The translations under genes and the position numbers were made by a program. The notes beneath the pieces were generated by a model. It was not told the origin of the DNA. It made no database searches and was given only the letters and a program-made list of their open reading frames with translations. 45,599 bases of DNA from Verrucomicrobiota bacterium (GTDB lineage: Bacteria; Verrucomicrobiota; Verrucomicrobiia; Opitutales; Opitutaceae), in assembly GCA_016871775.1 (NCBI GenBank), contig VHCI01000013.1, positions 1-45,599 on the forward strand, given 5' to 3'. This document shows positions 8,659 through 20,015 of this stretch, in pieces. Every line of letters begins with the position of its first letter. Position 1 is the stretch's first letter.

Positions 8659-8963
8659 TTCCCGCTACCCTCGACGGCCACCTGCTGGTGAGCGGAGCGC
8701 TCTTCGCTCTTGGCCTCCTCGGCGTGCTGCTCCGCCGCAACACGCTCGTGGTGTTTATGTGCCTGGAGTTGGTGCTGGTCGCCTCGACCGTGGCGCTGGT
8801 GGCGTTCTCCCGCTACAACGGGATCCTGGACGGCAACGTCTTCGTGTTCTTCATCCTCACCGTGGCCGCCGCCGAGGTGGCGGTGGGGCTGGCCATCATC
8901 GTGGCCCTTTTCCGGCGGCGCCAGACCGTCCAAGTGGACGAGCTCAATTCCCTGCGGAACTGA
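8655..8963 (+). CDS. nuoK: NADH-quinone oxidoreductase subunit K
   Basis: This 102-residue three-helix membrane subunit of the proton-pumping arm has the normal family length. The two intramembrane glutamates essential for proton transfer are present: E38 in [13 protein letters not shown] and E74 in [13 protein letters not shown]. The ATG overlaps the TGA of nuoJ by 4 nt. The frame is open upstream as a shadow of nuoJ, so the coupled ATG is chosen. nuoL follows after 1 bp. Confidence 0.96.
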
Positions 8964-8964
8964 G

Positions 8965-10854
8965 ATGAGTCCCGCCCTCCTCGCATCCGGCGTCCTGCTC
9001 GCGCCCCTCGCCGCGGCGGCGGTGATCGCCTTCGGCCTGCGCCGCGCGCCCGGCGCCGCCACGGCTGTCGCCCTCCTGGCCGCGGTCCTCGTCGCCGTAG
9101 GCTCCCTCGTGCTGGCCCTCGGGCCGGCCCGCGACTTCACCGCGTCCGTTGAGCTGCTCCGGCTCGGGACTTTCGGGCTCTCGCTCGGCCTCAAGTTCGA
9201 CGATCTGGCGGCCCTGCTGCTGGCGATCGTGGGCATCGTTGGCCTCTGTGTGCACGTGTTCTCGGTGGGCTATATGCGCGAGGACCCGGATCGCGCCCGC
9301 TACTTCGGCGGCCTCGCGATCTTCATGTTCTCGATGCTGGGCATCGTGTTCGCGGACTCGCTGCTGATGCTGTTCATCTTTTGGGAGCTGGTCGGCTTCA
9401 GCTCCTGGCTGCTGATCAACCACCACTTCCAGCGCACCCCCGCGGCTGAGGCCTCCAAGAAGGCCTTCATCGTCAACCGCGTCGGCGACTTCGGCTTTTT
9501 GCTCGGCCTCGTCTGGTGCCAGGCGCAGTTCGGTACCACCCAGCTCGACGCCCTCGCGAAGGCGGTCGATGGCGGCGCGGTCGTCGCCGCGGGCCTGCCG
9601 CTGCTCCTGTTCTGCGGTGCCGTTGGCAAGTCCGCCCAGTTGCCGCTCCACGTCTGGCTTCCCGACGCGATGGAGGGCCCGACGCCCGTCTCCGCCCTCA
9701 TCCACGCCGCCACGATGGTCGCGGCCGGCATCTACCTCCTCTGCCGCATCCACTTCCTGATGGTCCCGGCGGCGCTCGAGGTGATCCTGTGGACCGGCAC
9801 CATCACGGCCCTCTACGCGGCGCTGTGCGCGGTCACGCAACGAGATATCAAGAAGGTCCTGGCCTACTCCACCCTCTCGCAGCTCGGCTATATGGTGGCG
9901 GCGTTCGGGCTTGGTTCGCTTAAGGTAGCGCACGGTGACCATCACCACCTGATCGCGGCGGGCGTCGGGGCGGCGATGTTCCACCTTACCACGCACGCCT
10001 TCTTCAAGGCGCTGTTGTTCCTCGGGGCCGGTTCGGTGATCCACGCCTGCCACCACGAGCAGGACATCTTCAAGATGGGTGGTCTCGCGCGGCGGCTGCC
10101 GGTGACGTTCACCACCTTCACCATCGGCGTGCTCTCCCTGATCGGGATGCCCGGGCTGGCCGGGTTCTTCTCCAAGGACGCGATTTTGTACCTCGCCTGG
10201 GCCAAACATCCGGGGGTCTTCGCGGTGCTGGCCCTGACCGCGGTGCTGACCGCGTTCTATATGGTGCGGCTCTGGCGGATCACCTTCCTCGGCGCGGCGC
10301 GCGGCGAGGGCGCGGAGCACGCGCACGAGGGCGGGCCGGCGCTGACCGGGCCGTTGATTCTGCTCGCGGTGCTGTCGGTCATCGGCGGCTACGGCTGGTT
10401 CTACAGTGGCCTGCTCGGCGGCCGCTTCGACGGCGTGATCGACTCGGTAGTGCATCCGGCGGGCGCGGACCACACCCTCATCCTGCTCACAAGTGTGGCG
10501 GTGCTGGTGGCGGGCGCGCTCGGCGCCTGGCTGCTGTATCCCGCGGCGGGCGAGGATGCCGTGGCGCGCCGTGCCCCTAGGCTGTTCGGGCTGTTGGGGG
10601 GGCTGCAGGCCTCGTTTGACCGGGCCTATGGCGCCTATGTCGCCAAGGTGCAGCAGCGGCTGGCGATGCTGCTGAACTTCCTCGAGCAGATCTTCCTCGC
10701 TGGCCTGATTGTCCGCGGCCTTGCCGGGGTGGTGGGTCTGCTGGGCCTCGGCGCCCGGGCCCTGCACGTGGGCAATGCCAACGCCTACGCCTACTGGTTC
10801 CTGCTCGGCCTGCTGGCCCTGTGGGCCTTCGCGGCGGGCCTCCTGTCCTTCTGA
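8965..10854 (+). CDS. nuoL: NADH-quinone oxidoreductase subunit L
   Basis: This 629-residue protein is the distal antiporter-like proton-pumping subunit. The Mrp-type core carries the conserved glutamate E141 in FIFWELVGFSSWLLINHHF and the lysine K222 in AVGKSAQLPLHVWLPDAM, followed by EGPTPVSALIHAATMVAAG. The C-terminal part contains the region that forms the lateral helix and final membrane segment, ending YWFLLGLLALWAFAAGLLSF. Length is normal for the family. The gene is packed between nuoK (1 bp) and nuoM (3 bp). Confidence 0.96.
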   Translation: MSPALLASGVLLAPLAAAAVIAFGLRRAPGAATAVALLAAVLVAVGSLVLALGPARDFTASVELLRLGTFGLSLGLKFDDLAALLLAIVGIVGLCVHVFSVGYMREDPDRARYFGGLAIFMFSMLGIVFADSLLMLFIFWELVGFSSWLLINHHFQRTPAAEASKKAFIVNRVGDFGFLLGLVWCQAQFGTTQLDALAKAVDGGAVVAAGLPLLLFCGAVGKSAQLPLHVWLPDAMEGPTPVSALIHAATMVAAGIYLLCRIHFLMVPAALEVILWTGTITALYAALCAVTQRDIKKVLAYSTLSQLGYMVAAFGLGSLKVAHGDHHHLIAAGVGAAMFHLTTHAFFKALLFLGAGSVIHACHHEQDIFKMGGLARRLPVTFTTFTIGVLSLIGMPGLAGFFSKDAILYLAWAKHPGVFAVLALTAVLTAFYMVRLWRITFLGAARGEGAEHAHEGGPALTGPLILLAVLSVIGGYGWFYSGLLGGRFDGVIDSVVHPAGADHTLILLTSVAVLVAGALGAWLLYPAAGEDAVARRAPRLFGLLGGLQASFDRAYGAYVAKVQQRLAMLLNFLEQIFLAGLIVRGLAGVVGLLGLGARALHVGNANAYAYWFLLGLLALWAFAAGLLSF

Positions 10855-10857
10855 CCG

Positions 10858-12381
10858 ATGCGCACGCTGCCCTTTGATCCCCTGCTGGCCGCGATCGCCT
10901 TCCCGCTGGCGTCGGCGCTGGTCATCGCCAGCGGCCTGCCGAAGCGCTGGTCCGTGCGGCTCGCCTACGTGGCGTTCGCGGTGCCGCTGTTGCTCGCGCT
11001 GCACACCTGGTGGCACTTCGACGCCTCGCCTAAGGTCGCCGGCTACGCGTTCCTCACCCAGTACTCCACCGGCCTCGACGCGGTGGGCATTTCCCTGAAG
11101 CTGGGCCTGAACGGCATCGCGATGCCGCTCTTCCTGCTCGCCGGACTGGTCGGCTTCGCGGCGGGGTTGTATGCCCTGCAGTCGCAGGCGGAGCGCCTCA
11201 AGCTGTACCTGCTGCTGCTCCTCGTGATGCAGGGCGGCCTGATGGGCGTTTTCGCCAGCGTGGACGTCCTGTTCCTCTACTTCTTCCACGAGCTCGCGCT
11301 AATCCCGACCTTCATCATGGTTGGCGTCTGGGGTGGGCGGGACCGCACCTACGCGGCGATGAAGCTTACGATCTACCTGACCCTCGGGGCGATGCTCTCC
11401 CTCGCGGGCCTGATCGCGATCTACGCCCGCAGCGGTGCGAACTCTTTCGACTTGATGGCGCTGCGCGAGCACCTGGCCCGCTTCCCCCTCGATCAGGCGC
11501 TCCAGGGCAACCTCTTCGGGCTGCTGCTGGTGGGCCTTGGGGTGCTGGTGTCCCTCTTTCCCCTGCATACCTGGGCGCCGCTGGGCTACGGGGCCGCCCC
11601 GAGCTCCAACGCGATGCTCCACGCCGGCGTGCTGAAGAAGTTCGGTCTCTACACCCTGATCCAGGTCGCCGTCCCGCTGCTGCCCGCGGGGCACGCCGCC
11701 TGGGCCTCGCCCCTCGCGTGGCTCGCGGTGATCGGCAACGTGCTGATCATCGGGTTCGTCACTTTGGCCCAGCGCGACCTCAAGCAGATGATCGGGTACA
11801 GCTCCGTGATGCATATGGGTTATGCGTTCCTGGGTATCGCGACCGGCACGGCCGTGGGCGTAGGCGGGGCGGTGTTCCTGATGGTCGCGCACGGGCTCTC
11901 GGTCGCGTTGCTGTTCCTCCTCGCGACCAGCGTACACCACCGCACCCAGACCTTCGCCCTCGACGAGATGGGCGGCCTCGCGCGGCCCGCGCCGGTGCTG
12001 GCGGCGTTCCTCGTGGCGGCGACCTTCGCGGGCATCGGCCTTCCTGGCTTCGCCAACTTCTGGGGTGAACTCGCGGTGTTCGTGGCCCTCTGGCAGTTCT
12101 CGCCGGCGGTCACGGCCGTGGCGGTGGCTGGCGTGGTCATCTCGGCCATCTATGGCCTGCGGGCGCTCGCCCAGGTGTGCTTCGGCCCCGCGACTCCCCG
12201 GATGGAGGAGATCGCCTCCCGCCATCCCCCGGTGGACCTGCGCTGGTCCGAGCGCGTCCCGGCCGTGGTGCTCCTGACCGCCCTGCTGGCCCTCGGCTTC
12301 TGGCCGCGGGCGATCTCCGACCCGATCCACGCGGCGCTGGCCGCCCCGGCCACCGCGGCCGCCGCCCCTTCCGCGCGATGA
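10858..12381 (+). CDS. nuoM: NADH-quinone oxidoreductase subunit M
   Basis: This 507-residue antiporter-like proton-pumping subunit has about 14 helices. The conserved glutamate E145 sits in YFFHELALIPTFIMVGVWGG, and the lysine-bearing stretch LHAGVLKKFGLYTL and the block YSSVMHMGYAFLGIATGT are both typical of NuoM rather than NuoL or NuoN. The C-terminus is Ala/Pro-rich (APATAAAAPSAR), probably a disordered tail. The TGA overlaps the ATG of nuoN by 4 nt. Confidence 0.95.
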   Translation: MRTLPFDPLLAAIAFPLASALVIASGLPKRWSVRLAYVAFAVPLLLALHTWWHFDASPKVAGYAFLTQYSTGLDAVGISLKLGLNGIAMPLFLLAGLVGFAAGLYALQSQAERLKLYLLLLLVMQGGLMGVFASVDVLFLYFFHELALIPTFIMVGVWGGRDRTYAAMKLTIYLTLGAMLSLAGLIAIYARSGANSFDLMALREHLARFPLDQALQGNLFGLLLVGLGVLVSLFPLHTWAPLGYGAAPSSNAMLHAGVLKKFGLYTLIQVAVPLLPAGHAAWASPLAWLAVIGNVLIIGFVTLAQRDLKQMIGYSSVMHMGYAFLGIATGTAVGVGGAVFLMVAHGLSVALLFLLATSVHHRTQTFALDEMGGLARPAPVLAAFLVAATFAGIGLPGFANFWGELAVFVALWQFSPAVTAVAVAGVVISAIYGLRALAQVCFGPATPRMEEIASRHPPVDLRWSERVPAVVLLTALLALGFWPRAISDPIHAALAAPATAAAAPSAR

Positions 12382-13904
12382 CCCTCGAAGCCGCCAAGCT
12401 CGCCGCCGCCAACAACCTTTGGGGCGCCATCCTCCCCGAGCTGATGCTCGCCGGGGTCGCGCTCCTGCTGCTGGCCCTCGAGATCCTCCTGCCGCGCCGG
12501 CAGCAGCACGTCCTGCCCGATCTCGCGGGCGCGGGCATCCTCGGCACCCTGCTCGGGCTCTGCTTTAACTGGGATTCCGGGATGCTCGGCTCGGAGACCT
12601 TCGGTGGGCTCCTGTACCACAGCACCTCCGGCCAGCTGCTGCGCGCCTTCTTCCTCATCGCGGCCTTCCTCACCTGCGTCATCGCGCGGCTGACCCTGGC
12701 CCGCCAGAAGATGCCGCGGGTCGAGTTCTACCATCTCCTGCTGATCTGCACCGCCGCGATGATGCTGCTGGCGCAGACCAATCACCTGCTGATGCTGTTC
12801 GTGACGCTCGAGACGCTCACGATCGCCCTCTACGTGCTGGTGAGCTACCACCGCACGAGCCCCGCCTCCCTCGAGGCCGGCCTGAAGTACGTGCTGATGG
12901 GCGCCCTCAGCTCGGGCCTGCTGCTCTTCGGGATTACGCTGCTTTATGGGGTGGCGGGCAACCCGTCGCTCGCGGGCCACGCGGCGCGGCCGTTCCACTA
13001 CGCGGACCTCGCGGCGTTCCTGACCGCCAACCCGAACCACTTCATTGCCAGCCTGGGCATCGTCCTGGTGCTGGCCGGCGTGGCCTTCAAGATCGGGGCG
13101 TTTCCGTTCCAGATCTGGGTGCCGGACGTCTACCAGGGAGCGCCGACGCCCGTGACCGCTTTCCTTGCCGTGGCCTCAAAGGCGGCAGGTTTCGCGGTGC
13201 TCCTCGGCCTGTGCGGCCCGGGCGCGGTGTTCTCCTCCTACGCTTGGCTCACGACGCCCGTGCTGACCGCGATGGCGGCAGCCTCGCTTCTGTTCGGCAA
13301 TCTCGCGGCGCTCACCCAGCACAAGGTGAAGCGGTTGCTCGGCCTCTCGGGCGTCTCCCACGCGGGCTTCCTGCTCCTTGGGGTGGTGGCGGCCGGTGCA
13401 ACCCCGATGGCCATCGGGGCGATCTACTTCTACCTCTTCGCCTATCTCCTGGCGGCCTTCGCGGTCTTCGGGGTGATGGCGCACCTCGCGGGTCCCGATG
13501 ACGCGGATCAGGAACTCGACCACTATGCGGGCCTCGCCAAGGAGAGCCCGTTCCTGGCCGGGGTGCTTACCGTGGGCCTCGGTTCGTTGGCGGGCATTCC
13601 CCCGCTCGCGGGCTTTATGGGGAAACTCTTCATCTTCCTGGCCGCGTTCCAGGCCGGGGCGCGGGCGATGCTGGCTGTGGCGATCGTCGGCGTGGTGGTT
13701 TCGATTTACTATTATTTCGGATGGATCCGGGCGGCTTACTTCGAGACGTGGACTCCGCCGGCGGATGCGGCCGCGGGTCCGACCCGCCCGGCGCGCACCC
13801 CGGTAGGGCTGCTCGCGGGCGTGACCTTGGGCGCGCTCGCGCTGGCGTCCCTCGTGATCGGTTTCTACCCCGGCCCGCTCGGGCACTGGCTGGCGATGCG
13901 GTGA
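12378..13904 (+). CDS. nuoN: NADH-quinone oxidoreductase subunit N
   Basis: This 508-residue protein is the third antiporter-like subunit, next to NuoK and NuoM in the membrane arm. E145 in MLFVTLETLTIALYVLVSYH is the conserved intramembrane glutamate. VAFKIGAFPFQIWVPDVYQG and TPVTAFLAVASKAAGF are NuoN signatures with the catalytic lysines. The start is the ATG overlapping the nuoM stop. It is the last gene of the operon; the DNA after it has a short perfect inverted repeat and then decayed, non-nuo sequence. Confidence 0.96.
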   Translation: MTLEAAKLAAANNLWGAILPELMLAGVALLLLALEILLPRRQQHVLPDLAGAGILGTLLGLCFNWDSGMLGSETFGGLLYHSTSGQLLRAFFLIAAFLTCVIARLTLARQKMPRVEFYHLLLICTAAMMLLAQTNHLLMLFVTLETLTIALYVLVSYHRTSPASLEAGLKYVLMGALSSGLLLFGITLLYGVAGNPSLAGHAARPFHYADLAAFLTANPNHFIASLGIVLVLAGVAFKIGAFPFQIWVPDVYQGAPTPVTAFLAVASKAAGFAVLLGLCGPGAVFSSYAWLTTPVLTAMAAASLLFGNLAALTQHKVKRLLGLSGVSHAGFLLLGVVAAGATPMAIGAIYFYLFAYLLAAFAVFGVMAHLAGPDDADQELDHYAGLAKESPFLAGVLTVGLGSLAGIPPLAGFMGKLFIFLAAFQAGARAMLAVAIVGVVVSIYYYFGWIRAAYFETWTPPADAAAGPTRPARTPVGLLAGVTLGALALASLVIGFYPGPLGHWLAMR

Positions 13905-14147: not shown

Positions 14148-14424
14148 CGCTAACCGCCTGCTGGCTCGCCTGAAACAACGCCGGGAGGAGCTTGACCTGA
14201 CGCAGGAGGCCTTCGCGGAGCGTGCGGGTCTGGGCTACAAGTATTACTAGCCGGTGGCGGCGGGGCGCCGGCGGGACATCCGGCTCTCCACGACCGAGAA
14301 GCTGGCCAAGGCCTGCGACCTGGAGCTCTGGGAATTGCTCAACGTCGATGCCCCGTTGCCTCAGCTTGAGGAGGGTCCCGCCCCGGCCCGTCCCGGGGCG
14401 AAACGGCGGTCGTGGTCGGGTTGA
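14134..14424 (+). pseudogene. XRE-family HTH regulator interrupted by an in-frame TAG
   Basis: Reading from GTG 14134 gives a Cro/CI-type helix-turn-helix start: RLLARLKQRREELDLTQEAF then AERAGLGYKYY, which reaches a TAG at 14248-14250. The same frame continues for 57 codons with PVAAGRRRDIRLSTTEKLAK and ACDLELWELL, exactly the remainder expected of such a domain, and ends at TGA 14422. The family usually has glutamine after KYY (YYQ-x-AGRR), so a single CAG to TAG change explains the break. No frameshift is needed. The product would be about 96 residues. The call assumes no suppression of TAG. Confidence 0.75.
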
Positions 14425-14533
14425 GTTGCTCGGTGAGCGCGTGCGGCGTGCCGGGGGAAACCCGGCCGACCGAGGGGGCCAGCGTTTACCGGCTTGCGCT
14501 GGGCGGCGGCCTTTGCGGCCATTCCGTTCCCCT
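14425..14533. other. Gap between the XRE pseudogene and thyX
   Basis: A 6-bp hairpin (GCCGGG/CCCGGC at 14450-14466 with a GGAAA loop) is present. No obvious Shine-Dalgarno precedes the thyX ATG; the bases just upstream are pyrimidine-rich. I see no other structure. Confidence 0.3.
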
Positions 14534-15880
14534 ATGAAGATCACCGGCCTCGCCTTGGTTCCCCCTCCCGGCGCGGCGGACCTGCCGCGGGTGACGCCTG
14601 AGTTGCTCGCTTCCGTGCTCGCGCGCTACTCCCGCAGCAACGAGGGCCTCGGGGCCATCCTCGCCAAGGTCGACCCAGCCAACCCGGATGCCTCGATCGA
14701 CCGCATCCTCAAGTTCGTCGACTACGGGCACGCCTCGATCGGCGGGCTCACCGGCGGCCTCGCGGTGGCCCTCGACGACGTGTCGATGTGGTTCGCCTAC
14801 AAGTTGTTCGAGATCGCCACGATGGCGGACGGGCAGGAGTCGAGTTCCCGCTACATCACCCTCGCGCCGGAGAACCTGCCGGCGGCGGAGGAACTCGGCA
14901 TTCCAGACGACCTCGCGCCCCGTTGGCGCGCGGTGATGGCGCGGGCTTTCGCGGCCTACCAGGCGGAATACGCCTGCCTCGACGCCCTCGCGGTGGCAGA
15001 ACCGCAGCGCGTCCGCCTGCCGGCCGGAGCTACGCCGGCGGTGGCCGGCCGGTTGCGCAAGAACTACGCGCTCGACCGCGCGCGGTACTTCATCCCCTTC
15101 GCGACCAAGACCAACGTCGGGCTCGTCCAGACGGCGCGGATGTGGGCAGCGACGGTCAAGCACCTGGCCTCCCTGCCGCATCCCGAGGCTCGGGCGGCGG
15201 CCGACCTGATCCGCGGCGAGCTCCTCAAGCAATCCCCGCGCCTGACGCGCCACAGCCAGGCCGAGGCGTCGCACGTCGAGCAGGCCGCCCAGGAGCTGGC
15301 GCGTTCCCTCGCCCTCGGCCGCGAACGGCTGTCGCACGCTCCGCTGGCGGATGATGTCTGGGTGCACGTCGACCGCGCCGCGCCGCCGTGGCTAGCCGAG
15401 ACCCAGCCGGTGGCCGAGGCGCTGCGGCACCGGGCGAATCGTTACGGCCAGCAGGGTTTGGCCACCCGGCGGATGCGCGTGACCTTTGCCTGGAACAATA
15501 CCGCGCTGGCGGAGTTGCGGGACCTGAACCGCCACCGCACCGGCCACCGCTTCACGCCGCTCATTCAGGCGGGTTTCTACCTTCCCCCCGAGATCGACCG
15601 GGCGCCGCACGCGGCCCTGCTGGCGGACCAGCTGGAGCTTACCCGCGAGTTGCTCGCGCGCGGGAGCCCGGCCTACGTCTACTCGCTGCTGCTGGGCGCC
15701 CAGACGCCGTTCGAGCACAGCACCCACGCGGACAAGTTCATCTACGAGGCCGAGCTGCGGACCGGGATGGGTGCGCACTTCCGTTACGCCGAGCACCTCA
15801 GCGCCGCTCTGCGGGGCTTTTGCGCGCAGGTGCCGGAAGCGCGGGACTGGGTGGTCGAGGGCACGGCCGAGCCCGAGTAA
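14534..15880 (+). CDS. thyX: Tandem ThyX-like (FAD-dependent thymidylate synthase family) protein
   Basis: This 448-residue protein has two ThyX-like halves; classical ThyX subunits are about 220-250 residues and act as tetramers that methylate dUMP using FAD and methylene-tetrahydrofolate. The first half has the folded core FVDYGHASIGG at 61-71 and the end of the ThyX motif, E102-SSS-R106-Y107, but its RHR position reads IAT. The second half has the RHR triad at 333-335 (LRDLNRHRTGHRF) but lacks the following S-x-RY. FIPFATKTNVGLVQTAR at 186-202 and FEHSTHADKF at 393-402 are further family-like blocks. The ATG at 14534 starts just before the homology. It may be an active single-chain pseudodimer or a non-thymidylate paralogue. 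Confidence 0.75.
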   Translation: MKITGLALVPPPGAADLPRVTPELLASVLARYSRSNEGLGAILAKVDPANPDASIDRILKFVDYGHASIGGLTGGLAVALDDVSMWFAYKLFEIATMADGQESSSRYITLAPENLPAAEELGIPDDLAPRWRAVMARAFAAYQAEYACLDALAVAEPQRVRLPAGATPAVAGRLRKNYALDRARYFIPFATKTNVGLVQTARMWAATVKHLASLPHPEARAAADLIRGELLKQSPRLTRHSQAEASHVEQAAQELARSLALGRERLSHAPLADDVWVHVDRAAPPWLAETQPVAEALRHRANRYGQQGLATRRMRVTFAWNNTALAELRDLNRHRTGHRFTPLIQAGFYLPPEIDRAPHAALLADQLELTRELLARGSPAYVYSLLLGAQTPFEHSTHADKFIYEAELRTGMGAHFRYAEHLSAALRGFCAQVPEARDWVVEGTAEPE

Positions 15881-16510: not shown

Positions 16511-16813
16511 TCAGCCCTTTTCGGCTTCCCGGCGCACCTTGTCCTTCTCGGCCTCGCGGTCCTCCTCGAGGCGGGCCTTCTCGCTGGCCAGTTGCTCCTG
16601 GATTTTGCGCATTTCCTCGAGGTTCGAGGCGGCGAGGGCGGCGTCCAGCTGCTGCTTGAGGAAGATTTCCCGCTCGGCCAGCCGGCCCTGGTACACCCGG
16701 TCGATGTCCGCCAAGCGGGCCTTCTGCCCCGGGGTGAGGGCCCGGCCGGGGGCGGGCTCGTGCTTGGCGAGGCGCTCCATCGCGAGTTCGTAGGCGCTTT
16801 TCATAGGCTTCAT
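16511..16813 (-). CDS. Small charged coiled-coil protein (probable separate gene)
   Basis: Read from ATG 16813 (MKPMKSAYELAMERL, 100 residues) or ATG 16804 (MKSAYELAMERL, 97 residues), this forms one long charged helix: LAKHEP, TPGQKARLADIDRVYQGRLA, REIFLKQQLDAALAASNLEE and EKARLEEDREAEKDKVRREA. Heptad-like spacing suggests a coiled coil. It has the look of a conserved stand-alone verrucomicrobial hypothetical protein, recalled rather than checked. It lies in the comEC frame with no intervening stop. An ACAGG upstream of 16813 could serve as its ribosome site. It is convergent with the SPxD protein (30 bp). Confidence 0.6.
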   Translation of the reverse strand: MKPMKSAYELAMERLAKHEPAPGRALTPGQKARLADIDRVYQGRLAEREIFLKQQLDAALAASNLEEMRKIQEQLASEKARLEEDREAEKDKVRREAEKG

Positions 16814-18538
16814 CCTGTCCACGGCGGCCGGGACTTCAACCCTCAAGGCGGTCTCGGCGGCCTCCGCCTCGAGGCCCAGCGCGAGGAAGACCGCCACGAG
16901 CGCGAAGGGTGGCCACCAGCCGCCGAGCCGCCGGCGCCAGCCCGCCGCGTAGCCCGCCAGCAGGGAGGCGAAGAGGAGCGTTAGCGCAGTCGGGCCGATC
17001 CACGGTGCGGCGAACTGGGCGGGAAAGCAGAAGCCGGGCAGGTCGACCGTGGCGGTGATCACCGCGTCGATCCCGGCCAGCACGAGCGCGGCCGCGTGGT
17101 TGGCGATCACCGCGGGGAGGTCGGGTCCGACCAGCCCCGCGAGCAGGGAGGCAAAGCCGGCCAGCGTCACCAGCGTCGCCGCCGGCAGCAGGAGCAGGTT
17201 GGTCACGAAGGAGCCGGGTGTGAGGAGCCTGAAGAAGTGCACCCCGGTCAGCAGGCTCACCAGCGTGGTCGCGAGTCCGACCGCCACGGCCACGGCGAGC
17301 CCGCGCAGGCCGGCCTCCACCGCGCGGTGCCAGGGGCGGCGCTCCGCTTCCGGCAGCAGGGGCCAGAGCCGGCAGCGTTCCTGCCACGCCTCCCCGAGGG
17401 GCAGCCCGAGCACCAGCAGCGCGAGGACGATCGCGTAGCTGAGCAGGAAGCTGGTCGAGAAGGCGTCGAGGGGCTCGAGCACGAGCACGGCGAGGGCGGA
17501 GGCGGCGAGGGCGGCGACCAGATTGCCCGGCTGGCGCCCGACCTGGGCCGCCTGCAGGAAGGTCGCCATCGCCCAGGCGCGCACCGCCGAGGGCGAGGCG
17601 CCGGTGATGTCCACGAACAGCCAGAGCGCGGCGCTCCCGGCCGCGAGGGCCGGCCAGGGCGGGACGCGGGCGAGCGAGAGCAGGGAGCGCAGCGCCACCG
17701 CGATGACCCCGATATTGAGGCCACTGATCGCAAAAAGGTGCATTGTGCCCGAGCGCTGGAAGCGGTCGCGCTGGTCGGCATCGAGCTCCTTGGTGTCCCC
17801 CAGCATCATCCCGCGCAGGAGGGCCGCAAGCTCCGGGCGGCGCTCGGCCACACCGAGGTCGAGGATGCGGCGGAAACGTTCCGCGGCGGCGGCGCAGAAC
17901 CGCGCGTAGGCGTCGGCGGGGCGGGTCTCCGCGGTGAACGTCCCGCGTTGGAGGCGGAACTGGACGCCGATGCCGGTCAGGTAGGCGTCGAAGCCTCCCG
18001 GCGGCGGCGCACGGGGGAGGGGAGTGAGGACCGCGCGCGCGGCGAGGTGGGTGCCGCGCAGGGGCGGGTCGATCCCCGGCGGCACCGTCAACGCGAAGGA
18101 AACCCGGCGGCCGGTCAGGTCGGCGAGGTGGGGCGGGGCGCGGGTGACGCGGCCGAGGCCGGTGGAGCGGCGTTCGCCGGGGCTCGAGTAGAGGCGGTCG
18201 ACGCGGAACTCGAGTTCCGCCTCCCGGGGCGGCAATTGATCCCAGTCTCCCAGCCAATCCCGGTGCAGGGCGTGGCTGGCCGCGCCGGCGGCGCCGAGGG
18301 CGAGGTGCAGGAGCAGGGCCCAGAGGGCGGGCCGGGCCGGTGCGAGCAGCGCGGCGGCCGCCAGCAGGAGGGCCGCGGCCAACAGCGGTGCGGCGGGGAT
18401 CGAGCCGGCGGCGTGACCGGCGGCCAAGCCGGCGAAATAGGGGAGCGCCAGATGCAGCAGCGGGGCGCGATGGCCGAGGCTCCGGGGGGGCGGCGCCGGT
18501 TCGGCGGCAGGAGGGGCGGGAGAGGCGAGGACTGACAT
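16511..18538 (-). CDS. comEC: ComEC/Rec2-family DNA-uptake membrane protein, in-frame with a small coiled-coil protein
   Basis: The first 575 residues form a ComEC/Rec2-type protein, the inner-membrane channel that imports single-stranded DNA in natural competence. There is an N-terminal membrane part, an OB-like DUF4131 region (about 110-210), and the competence domain with the hallmark GTMHLFAISGLNIGVIAVAL near 300. The usual C-terminal metallo-beta-lactamase domain is absent. Instead the frame runs without a stop through ETALRVEVPAAVDR into a ~100-residue charged coiled coil that looks like an independent gene (see next entry). A +1 shift just before the junction meets a TGA, so the fusion may be an indel or a sequencing error. 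The ATG at 18538 is chosen over the Arg/Pro-rich upstream extension. Confidence 0.75.
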   Translation of the reverse strand: MSVLASPAPPAAEPAPPPRSLGHRAPLLHLALPYFAGLAAGHAAGSIPAAPLLAAALLLAAAALLAPARPALWALLLHLALGAAGAASHALHRDWLGDWDQLPPREAELEFRVDRLYSSPGERRSTGLGRVTRAPPHLADLTGRRVSFALTVPPGIDPPLRGTHLAARAVLTPLPRAPPPGGFDAYLTGIGVQFRLQRGTFTAETRPADAYARFCAAAAERFRRILDLGVAERRPELAALLRGMMLGDTKELDADQRDRFQRSGTMHLFAISGLNIGVIAVALRSLLSLARVPPWPALAAGSAALWLFVDITGASPSAVRAWAMATFLQAAQVGRQPGNLVAALAASALAVLVLEPLDAFSTSFLLSYAIVLALLVLGLPLGEAWQERCRLWPLLPEAERRPWHRAVEAGLRGLAVAVAVGLATTLVSLLTGVHFFRLLTPGSFVTNLLLLPAATLVTLAGFASLLAGLVGPDLPAVIANHAAALVLAGIDAVITATVDLPGFCFPAQFAAPWIGPTALTLLFASLLAGYAAGWRRRLGGWWPPFALVAVFLALGLEAEAAETALRVEVPAAVDRMKPMKSAYELAMERLAKHEPAPGRALTPGQKARLADIDRVYQGRLAEREIFLKQQLDAALAASNLEEMRKIQEQLASEKARLEEDREAEKDKVRREAEKG

Positions 18539-18653
18539 CGGGGCCGGAACGCAGCGCGGCGCCGGCGGCAGGGCGAGGCGCGTGTGTCCCGGATTTGCGG
18601 GCCAGCCGCAGAATGCCCTTCCCACGCGTGCCGCGCCCGCCGAGGATCGCGGG

Positions 18654-20015
18654 ATGGCGTCGTCCGAGCAGTCCGACCTGTTCGCCACCCCTGTGGCGGG
18701 CTCGGAATGGCCGGCGTCCGTCTCCGCTGGGCCCGCGCCCTTGGCGGCGCGGATGCGTCCGCGGCGGCTGGCGGAGGTCGTGGGCCAGGAGCACCTGTTG
18801 CGGCCCGGCAGCCTGCTCCCGCGCCTCGTGGCGCAGAACCGTTTCGGTTCGCTCCTGTTCTATGGGCCGCCCGGGTGCGGCAAGACCTCCCTCGCCGAGG
18901 CCATCGCCCGGGAGACGGGCAGCCGTTTCGTGCGGATCAACGCGGTGATGTCGAACGTCGCGGAACTGCGCGAGATCCTCGCGGGCGCCCGCCGGCGGCC
19001 CGAGGCGGGGACGCTCCTCTTCATCGACGAGTTGCACCGATTCAACAAGGCCCAGCAGGACCTGCTGTTGCCGGACGTGGAGGAGGGCGTGGTGCGGCTG
19101 ATCGGGGCCACCACTCATAATCCGGGCTTCTACGTGAACCCGCCGCTGCTCTCCCGCAGCCACCTGTTCCGGCTGGAGCCCCTGGCGCCCGCGACCATCG
19201 CGGCGGTGCTGCGCGGGGCGCTGGCGGACGTGGAGCGGGGCCTGGGCCGGCGGGGGCACACGGCCGCCGAGGTGGTGCTGCTGGATCTGGCGGTGCTGGC
19301 CGACGGCGACCTGCGGCGCGCGCTCAACTCGCTCGAGGTTATCGCCCTGGGGCGTCCCGAAGGCGCGGCGATCACCCCGGCCGAGCTGGAGACCTTCGCC
19401 CGCGAACGCCGCATCCGGTACGACGCGGACGAGGACGAGCATCACGATACCATTTCGGCCTATATCAAAAGCTGCCGCGGCAGCGATCCGGATGCTGCCC
19501 TCTATTGGCTGGCCAAGATGCTGGCTGGCGGCGAGGACCCCCGGTTCATCGCGCGCCGCCTCGTGATTCTGGCGAGCGAGGACATCGGGTTGGCCGATCC
19601 CCAGGCGTTGCCGCTGACGGTGGCTGCGCACCACGCGGTCGACTTCGTGGGCTTGCCCGAGGCGGAGCTGACCCTGGCCCACGCGACCCTGTATGTCGCC
19701 GCGGCGCCCAAGAGCAATTCGGCCACCCTCGCCCTCGCGGCCGCCCACCGCGAACTCAAGGAGCGACCCGTCCAGCCCGTGCCCGCCTTCCTGCGCTCGA
19801 AGGGCGGCGAGGCCAATCGCCGGGTGGGGCAGGGCGCCGGCTACGACTACTCCCACGACTTCCCGGAGAATATCTCGGGCCAGGACTATCTGGAGCGGCC
19901 CGTGACTTTATACACGCCGAAGACGGCGGGCTGGGAGGCCAAGATCGCCGAGCGCCTCGCGCGCTGGCGGGCCCTGAAGGCGGAGCGCGGCGCGGGCGCC
20001 AACCCGCCGCGCTAA
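18654..20015 (+). CDS. rarA: RarA/MgsA-type replication-associated AAA+ ATPase
   Basis: This 453-residue protein acts at stalled replication forks in recombination-linked maintenance (RarA, also called MgsA). The AAA+ module shows Walker A GPPGCGKT at 71-78, Walker B LLFIDELHRF at 121-130, sensor 1 GATTHNP at 151-157 and an arginine-containing RSHLF at 168-172. The C-terminal half has family blocks such as MLAGGEDPRFIARRL and ASEDIGLADPQAL and the end RSKGGEANRRVGQGAGYDYS. The ATG at 18654 is preferred over a longer GC-rich extension. It is divergent from comEC with 115 bp between the starts. Confidence 0.95.
   Translation: MASSEQSDLFATPVAGSEWPASVSAGPAPLAARMRPRRLAEVVGQEHLLRPGSLLPRLVAQNRFGSLLFYGPPGCGKTSLAEAIARETGSRFVRINAVMSNVAELREILAGARRRPEAGTLLFIDELHRFNKAQQDLLLPDVEEGVVRLIGATTHNPGFYVNPPLLSRSHLFRLEPLAPATIAAVLRGALADVERGLGRRGHTAAEVVLLDLAVLADGDLRRALNSLEVIALGRPEGAAITPAELETFARERRIRYDADEDEHHDTISAYIKSCRGSDPDAALYWLAKMLAGGEDPRFIARRLVILASEDIGLADPQALPLTVAAHHAVDFVGLPEAELTLAHATLYVAAAPKSNSATLALAAAHRELKERPVQPVPAFLRSKGGEANRRVGQGAGYDYSHDFPENISGQDYLERPVTLYTPKTAGWEAKIAERLARWRALKAERGAGANPPR

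Follow-up and report, generated by a model that had tools for sequence, protein, structure and literature searches.

A double ThyX protein of Opitutaceae and phages: two fused ThyX units that probably divide one active site

In classical ThyX, the motif elements RHR and S-x-RY stand together in one domain. Many genomes devoid of ThyA rely on this enzyme for thymidylate synthesis and, since humans are without ThyX, it is also a drug target, as outlined in parts of two reports (PMC3498832, PMC5954106). The locus analysed here belongs to a window of 45,599 nucleotides (the whole stretch of DNA under analysis, contig VHCI01000013.1 of an Opitutaceae genome) and encodes a ThyX-like protein in which the two elements lie far apart, in different halves of a single chain. 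This arrangement raises the question of whether the protein is still a ThyX, how an active site could be put together from its halves, and whether it supplies the cell with thymidylate.

The gene spans positions 14534..15880 of the forward strand (+), on which all its features mentioned below are also located, and runs from an ATG start to a TAA stop, coding for 448 residues that match the Thy1 family of Pfam. Specifically, residues 23-235 score 45.1 bits against a cut-off of 24.8 and, with this cut-off passed and a ThyX fold in its N-half, the protein belongs to the Thy1/ThyX superfamily (PF02511). It falls outside classical ThyX, as its motif is split between the halves and the NCBIfam equivalog of ThyX, TIGR02170, is not passed (14.7 bits against a cut-off of 87.9). 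No ThyA match (PF00303, Thymidylat_synt) was detected in the protein at E values up to 1, and nothing was returned from the PDB, within the same limit, either by phmmer with the single protein or by a profile of an alignment of 20 homologues (A1).

When compared with classical ThyX, both motifs appear broken, as would be expected if they had eroded in a pseudogene that is decaying or was fused by chance. The start ATG, however, is common to the gene and the nine close relatives compared, and across these relatives the codon differences are mostly synonymous, with 84 synonymous versus 7 nonsynonymous differences from the 98% identical L002, and 176 versus 63 from L005. The double ThyX gene is under purifying selection. 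This strong excess of synonymous change, the retention of the gene in 159 of 171 genomes of the family and the presence of the same split in phages at about 20% identity together refute the pseudogene reading, whose probability we regard as negligible.

The genes upstream code for antiporter-type subunits of complex I (8710-13904), the gene downstream, on the opposite strand (-), for a competence protein (16511-18688), and no nucleotide-metabolism gene was found among the scanned neighbours. In addition, a small frame upstream (14150-14430) resembles by eye a helix-turn-helix protein of the XRE type and contains an in-frame TAG at 14248-14250 (...GLGYKYY*PVAAGRRRD...). Pfam gave nothing on the part of this frame that follows the TAG, and a pattern search for it in the 620 bases upstream of the gene in six relatives found none; the frame may be the remnant of a gene or owe its stop to an error in the sequence.

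The preliminary description of this DNA had proposed that each half has lost the part of the motif that the other retains. The two strings on which it relied are exact, IATMADGQESSSRY corresponding to residues 94-107 (14813-14854) and RHRTGHRF to residues 333-340 (15530-15553), while its division into residues 1-220 and 221-448 has to be redrawn, a better split being an N-half of residues ~1-244, a linker of ~245-300 and a C-half of ~302-440. To describe the family, 174 double proteins were collected (154 distinct, copies of the window's own gene included), and 172 proteins were reduced, on the basis of shared 4-mers, to 71 representatives, of which 46 come from viral contigs, 2 from named phages and 23 from bacterial genomes. 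Nearly without exception in both the 71 representatives and the 174 proteins, the N-half is without RHR and keeps E-x-S-x-RY, and the C-half keeps RHR and is without the S/RY part, as had been proposed. The [EQ]x[STC]xRY motif is found in the N-half of 174/174 double proteins and RHR in the C-half of 171/174, RHR being present in the N-half of none (0/174). By simple patterns, a strict split, with the RY motif only in the N-half and RHR only in the C-half, applies to 170/174. Three phage proteins (L207, L212 and L213) are without RHR in the C-half, L207 reading RQR there, and L152 shows an additional, stray RY-type match in its C-half. Since the split is kept nearly without exception in the double proteins collected, it is not a product of chance.

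Part of this conservation is biased, because the patterns used for retrieval contained motifs: one search employed two C-half patterns, the viral set of 24 loci one C-half and one N-half pattern, and the set of 38 loci two N-half patterns. Less biased are therefore the conservation of the C-half in the 38 remote viral loci and that of the N-half in the set retrieved with two C-half patterns. RHR and S-x-RY were found joined in one domain in 30/30 ThyX proteins of the phylum, which had been selected by the same pattern and hence are no independent control.

An AlphaFold2 model of the single chain, computed on an alignment of 59 diverse rows (A5), reached a pLDDT of 93.1 and a pTM of 0.90. An earlier model from A1, in which 17 of the 19 other homologues are 77-86% identical, was discarded (pLDDT 53.7). 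Both Foldseek and VIA-align match the N-half with ThyX; by VIA-align, it superimposes (model residues 1-243) on H. pylori ThyX 3ah5_B with a Z of 12.7 over 184 residues and an rmsd of 2.9, and PolB 4p5b, titled UMP/dUMP methylase, reaches a Z of 10.8. The VIA-align rows of ThyX and PolB span residues 1-255 at most and are silent on the C-half. In the PDB, the A5 profile matches Mtb ThyX (3GWC) through the N-half at an E value of 1.5e-11.

The N-half (residues 1-244, 14534..15265) keeps the residues of subunit-B and subunit-C type. Specifically, the profile alignment pairs GHxS68 with GHFS71 of Mtb, so that S68 of the H66-A-S68 element (14729..14737; H66 and S68 each 71/71) corresponds to Ser71, which contacts FAD from subunit B. 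The ESSSRY stretch, E102-S-S104-S-R106-Y107 (14837..14854; E, S, R and Y each 71/71), aligns with QLSQRY (Q103-Y108) of Mtb, in the dUMP site and tyrosine lid of subunit C, E102 being paired with Q103, S104 with S105, R106 with R107 and Y107 with Y108. R184, on the 'ARxxLP' strand (15083..15085), is an Arg in 70/71 and is the residue that we take to be the equivalent of Tm R147. It is separated by 18 residues, in 59/59 rows, from R202 (15137..15139), which aligns with the FAD-binding R190 of subunit B in Mtb and is conserved in 63/71 representatives and missing in 8/71. Two elements are lost from the N-half: IAT (residues 94-96, 14813..14821) occupies the RHR place, with a third position other than Arg in 71/71, and L211 (15164..15166) occupies the place of Mtb R199, also non-Arg in 71/71.

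The C-half (~residues 302-440, 15437..15853) is a second and more diverged unit. By itself, that of the window protein matches Pfam Thy1 weakly (12.8 bits, below the cut-off, over profile positions 57-190), and the C-half of G088 reaches 22.4 bits, just below the cut-off. When 59 C-halves were searched alone, Thy1 was the commonest Pfam family, in 20/59 at E values up to 1, the next family accounting for 2/59. A profile of the C-half alignment (A6) matched three PDB sequences up to an E value of 10, all of them ThyX (4fzb, 2cfa; E 0.004-0.0047), and LRTG of the C-half was aligned with LRTS, so that R409 falls on the LR of these entries. In the model, the order strand, helix, strand, helix, helix, strand, helix, helix is repeated in both halves. 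In a viral library, the best match covers the whole protein and is the thymidylate synthase of phage Ma-LMM01 (E 2.4e-17, TM 0.66 by query).

Direct profile comparisons are weak: hhalign gave a probability of 22% and an E value of 0.001 for the C-half versus canonical ThyX, and still less, 4%, for the N-half versus the C-half. Likewise, with an HMM of 30 canonical ThyX sequences, 3/71 C-halves exceeded 5 bits (top 5.9) and N-halves reached up to 20.2, and among the controls this threshold was exceeded by 1/1420 shuffles and 0/71 reversed sequences, the best shuffle (8.1) scoring above the best C-half. The identity of the C-half as ThyX therefore rests on the A6 matches in the PDB, the Thy1 counts, the order of strands and helices in the model and the conservation of residues, and not on the hhalign or shuffle tests. 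On these grounds, it is very likely that the C-half is related to ThyX, less firmly so than the N-half. The earlier view of two ThyX-related halves is in this way upheld, and the protein holds two ThyX units in one chain.

Within the C-half, R333-H334-R335 (15530..15538) represents the RHR of subunit-A type, conserved in 71/71, 69/71 and 71/71 representatives, with Gln replacing H334 in 2/71. R409 (15758..15760), equivalent to the dUMP-binding R199 of subunit A in Mtb, is an Arg in 71/71, and R333, R335 and R409 are all invariant in A6. At position 400, the place of Mtb R190, an Arg occurs in 0/71. The complementarity of the halves put forward in the preliminary description also covers the Arg equivalents of Mtb R190, retained by the N-half, and of R199, retained by the C-half. 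A further observation concerns residue 330 (15521-15523), which is Asp in 70/71 and Glu in one, where the canonical RQxxRHR has Gln; D330 is possibly both a signature of the family and an altered dUMP contact.

According to the relevant passages of PMC6514825, the ThyX active site draws on three subunits: in Mtb numbering, subunit A supplies R95, H96, R97 and R199, subunit B supplies S71 and R190, and subunit C supplies R87, S105, R107 and the lid Y108, together with the backbone of Q103. That list assigns ten side chains to subunits, nine that bond FAD or dUMP plus the lid tyrosine, and 9/10 are present in the double protein, each in one half. The N-half holds the equivalents of S71, R190, S105, R107 and Y108 (71, 63, 71, 71 and 71 of 71) and the C-half those of R95, H96, R97 and R199 (71, 69, 71 and 71 of 71), and no Arg counterpart of the dUMP contact R87 was found in either half. 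The N-half would thus play the B and C roles, except for R87, and the C-half, from which every B and C motif that could be placed has been lost, the A role. Such a division would make a site whole once the halves meet, and it fits the geometry, the A role being filled by one half and the B and C roles by the other. As judged from the aligned residues, the proposal that the catalytic residues are kept as composite sites formed by both halves largely holds. We consider it highly probable that the protein is a flavin-dependent thymidylate synthase of the ThyX superfamily, made of two fused ThyX units that divide one active site.

Another reading would make the N-half alone catalytic and the C-half structural or regulatory, its RHR being incidental, in line with a Pfam score above the cut-off for the N-half alone and with ThyX fold matches that end by residue 255. 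We regard this reading as very improbable, against the absence from all N-halves of RHR (174 proteins) and of the R199 equivalent (71 representatives), and the retention of R333, R335 and R409 in every representative C-half.

The ThyX tetramer has D2 symmetry. If the C-halves of two chains both occupy A-type places, the assembly would, by this symmetry, be expected to contain two sites that are complete and two that are dead. In the arrangement that we propose for the divided site, each chain would be a pseudo-dimer and two chains would form a pseudo-tetramer. A working site would take RHR (333-335) and R409 from a C-half, for the FAD phosphates and flavin and for dUMP, and S68, R202, E102-S104-R106-Y107 and R184 from the N-halves. 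A homodimer would have two such working sites, the other two ancestral sites being dead, and the reaction would presumably be the one known from ThyX, in which the methylene of CH2-THF passes to FAD and then to dUMP, giving dTMP. Composite sites could also be assembled otherwise, for instance in a monomer with one intramolecular site and no pseudo-tetramer, and the structure model is indeed of a single chain. This appears unlikely, as the ThyX site described in the passages of PMC6514825 needs three subunits. In the known geometry, S71/R190 belong to one neighbouring subunit and S105/R107/Y108 to another, which is more than the one N-half of a single chain could provide.

The preliminary description had named a thyA or thyX elsewhere in the genome, together with a failure to bind FAD/dUMP, as evidence that would count against its reading. 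No such second gene was found: in the cell's own genome, which is 96% complete, the window protein is the one Thy1 match and no ThyA match was found. The same genome has a match to thymidine kinase, so that salvage is possible, and a partial DHFR match of 30.7 bits. In the family as a whole, counted over 171 Opitutaceae genomes of at least 90% completeness, the double ThyX profile matches 159, among them G389, G447 and G353 with lower-scoring and perhaps partial matches, and is absent from 12. It is these 12 genomes, and no others of the 171, that carry full-length ThyA at an E value below 1e-100 (G223, G327, G328, G329, G335, G379 and G425-G430). The chance of such an exclusion is 1.1e-18 if the genomes are taken as independent, a value that is too small because they are related, and 1.1e-5 when counted by genus (4/40). 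In addition, the other genomes of the same order in the phylum sample all have full ThyA and no Thy1 match (18/18).

Since the own genome has no other match to ThyX or ThyA and full-length ThyA is excluded across the family, the cell very probably has no de novo thymidylate synthase other than the double ThyX; that it works like ThyX is well supported. Between the two options offered by the preliminary description, the mutual exclusion with ThyA over 171 genomes favours an altered thymidylate synthase and disfavours a new flavin enzyme. An enzyme of ThyX fold that methylates or otherwise modifies another nucleotide, and is not the cell's thymidylate synthase, would have a precedent in PolB; the replacement of the canonical Gln by D330 and the missing R87 equivalent would fit such a change, and phages could use the product for a modified base. 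This reading is nevertheless very improbable in view of the exact complementarity with full-length ThyA and the own genome's single Thy1 match and want of ThyA. Separately, weak ThyA-like matches (E 1.3e-7 to 4.1e-19), in frames of 308-507 residues and covering no more than part of the model, occur in 10/159 double-ThyX genomes (G010, G099, G122, G343, G344, G350, G351, G362, G364 and G450).

A search of genome contigs with the window protein returned 238 relatives, the best 80 of the 238 all being close (79-98% identity) and the three closest belonging to Opitutaceae or Opitutae. Of 288 sampled genomes from the phylum, 26 contain the protein, and 24 of these are of its own family, the window included; outside the family, G177 and G201 carry a double ThyX of 45-47% identity. 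Viral contigs yielded 24 loci with 34-50% identity to the window protein, and a second search with a query from this first set added 38 loci (21-39% identity over the matched piece), 22 of these 62 viral loci lying on contigs longer than 150 kb, up to 479 kb. A plasmid search for the double ThyX gave no match. A scan of viral contigs for canonical ThyX was set aside, having produced one locus only.

Named phages with the double gene are the Microcystis phages Ma-LMM01 (gp20, annotated as thymidylate synthase) and Mvi-JY20, Vibrio phage BONAISHI and Tunturiibacter phage Tunturi_5. All A5 members match both Pfam Thy1 (59/59, E up to 0.1) and PHROG 36506, thymidylate synthase (59/59, E up to 0.001). 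In the 28 phage records with the double gene, some of them fragments, ThyA matches numbered 0 and dCMP-deaminase-family matches 7; in Tunturi_5, a gene of the latter family is annotated just upstream of the double ThyX gene.

In a tree of 64 proteins, the 12 Opitutaceae rows are placed together on one side of a branch (100/100), among viral rows, and G177 and G201 are located elsewhere, also among viral rows. As the bacterial search employed the window protein only, and so recovered close relatives and undersampled cousins beyond the family, this nesting may reflect sampling. The unrooted tree suggests that an essential enzyme was exchanged between phages and a bacterial family, in either direction. 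We are inclined to think that the enzymes of large phages and of most examined Opitutaceae form one family of thymidylate synthases and are pseudo-tetramers of two fused chains, with the A role in the C-half and the B and C roles in the N-half, that two of the four sites are dead and perhaps free for another task, and that the bacterial family replaced ThyA by a phage-type enzyme once.

A protein of the same polarity was found in another family of the phylum. In G004 (G004:C20; L141 416-2407, -), a 532-residue protein matches Pfam Thy1 twice, at 124.8 and 73.3 bits, the first half containing EQVSQRY without RHR and the second RHR and RMRLxxxAQ. With the N-profile of the window family, the N-half of the G004 protein scores 48.4 bits and its C-half -1.5; with the C-profile, the C-half scores 4.6 bits and the N-half -0.3. 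These scores hint, short of proof, that the G004 protein and the window family go back to one old duplication, but a single-domain ThyX profile likewise prefers the N-half (52.0 versus 24.1 bits).

The preliminary description had suspected that two-domain ThyX-like proteins were already known, and rightly so: in the available text of PMC3224940, Valas and Bourne mentioned in 2009 an uncharacterised 'duplicated ThyX' of Chloroflexi, so that the kind was by then in print. That text gives no residue analysis, and the comparison is thus one of description and not of sequence; the G004 protein may be of the same kind. Among the open-licence papers on the topic, as far as their retrieved text goes, PMC3224940 alone mentions a duplication of ThyX, and no paper on complementary residue loss in double ThyX was found in the open-licence literature. 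The retrieved portion of PMC9927357, on a related phage, does not mention the split, and passages of PMC7824862 report that jumbo phages carry ThyX or TS. What appears to be new here is the complementary partition of ThyX site residues between fused halves, duplicated ThyX itself being already known.

Compared with classical ThyX/FDTS (PF02511, TIGR02170; Mtb 3GWC, H. pylori 3AH5, viral 2CFA), the window protein shares the fold in its N-half, nine of the ten listed FAD/dUMP residues and, by inference, the role of sole thymidylate synthase in ThyA-less genomes. It differs in having two units per chain, with RHR...S-x-RY whole in neither half, and a predicted two working sites per four-unit assembly instead of four. 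Ma-LMM01 gp20 and its relatives (PHROG 36506) have the same double architecture and the same split, but the Ma-LMM01-type protein is longer and only about 23% identical to the window protein (Ma-LMM01-like A5 row). Chlamydia ThyX is of about 60 kDa and so possibly also double. Chlamydiae have ThyX, and that of C. trachomatis has been assayed, according to parts of PMC5954106, PMC3932018 and PMC3498832.

In a ThyX partitioned in this way, the contributions that a site normally receives from three identical subunits would be separated and could be mutated one at a time, which a homotetramer does not allow. It would also offer a clean case of duplicate units within one chain made mutually dependent by complementary loss. 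In addition, as TIGR02170 misses the window protein, a genome of this type could be scored as being without thymidylate synthase.

As a last observation, diverged Thy1-like proteins occur in G068, G095, G145, G225 and G264 (L142-L146), covering the profile only from about position 59 (141 in G145) to 186-190; the one in L145 reads THRLFSRNASSSRAVP.
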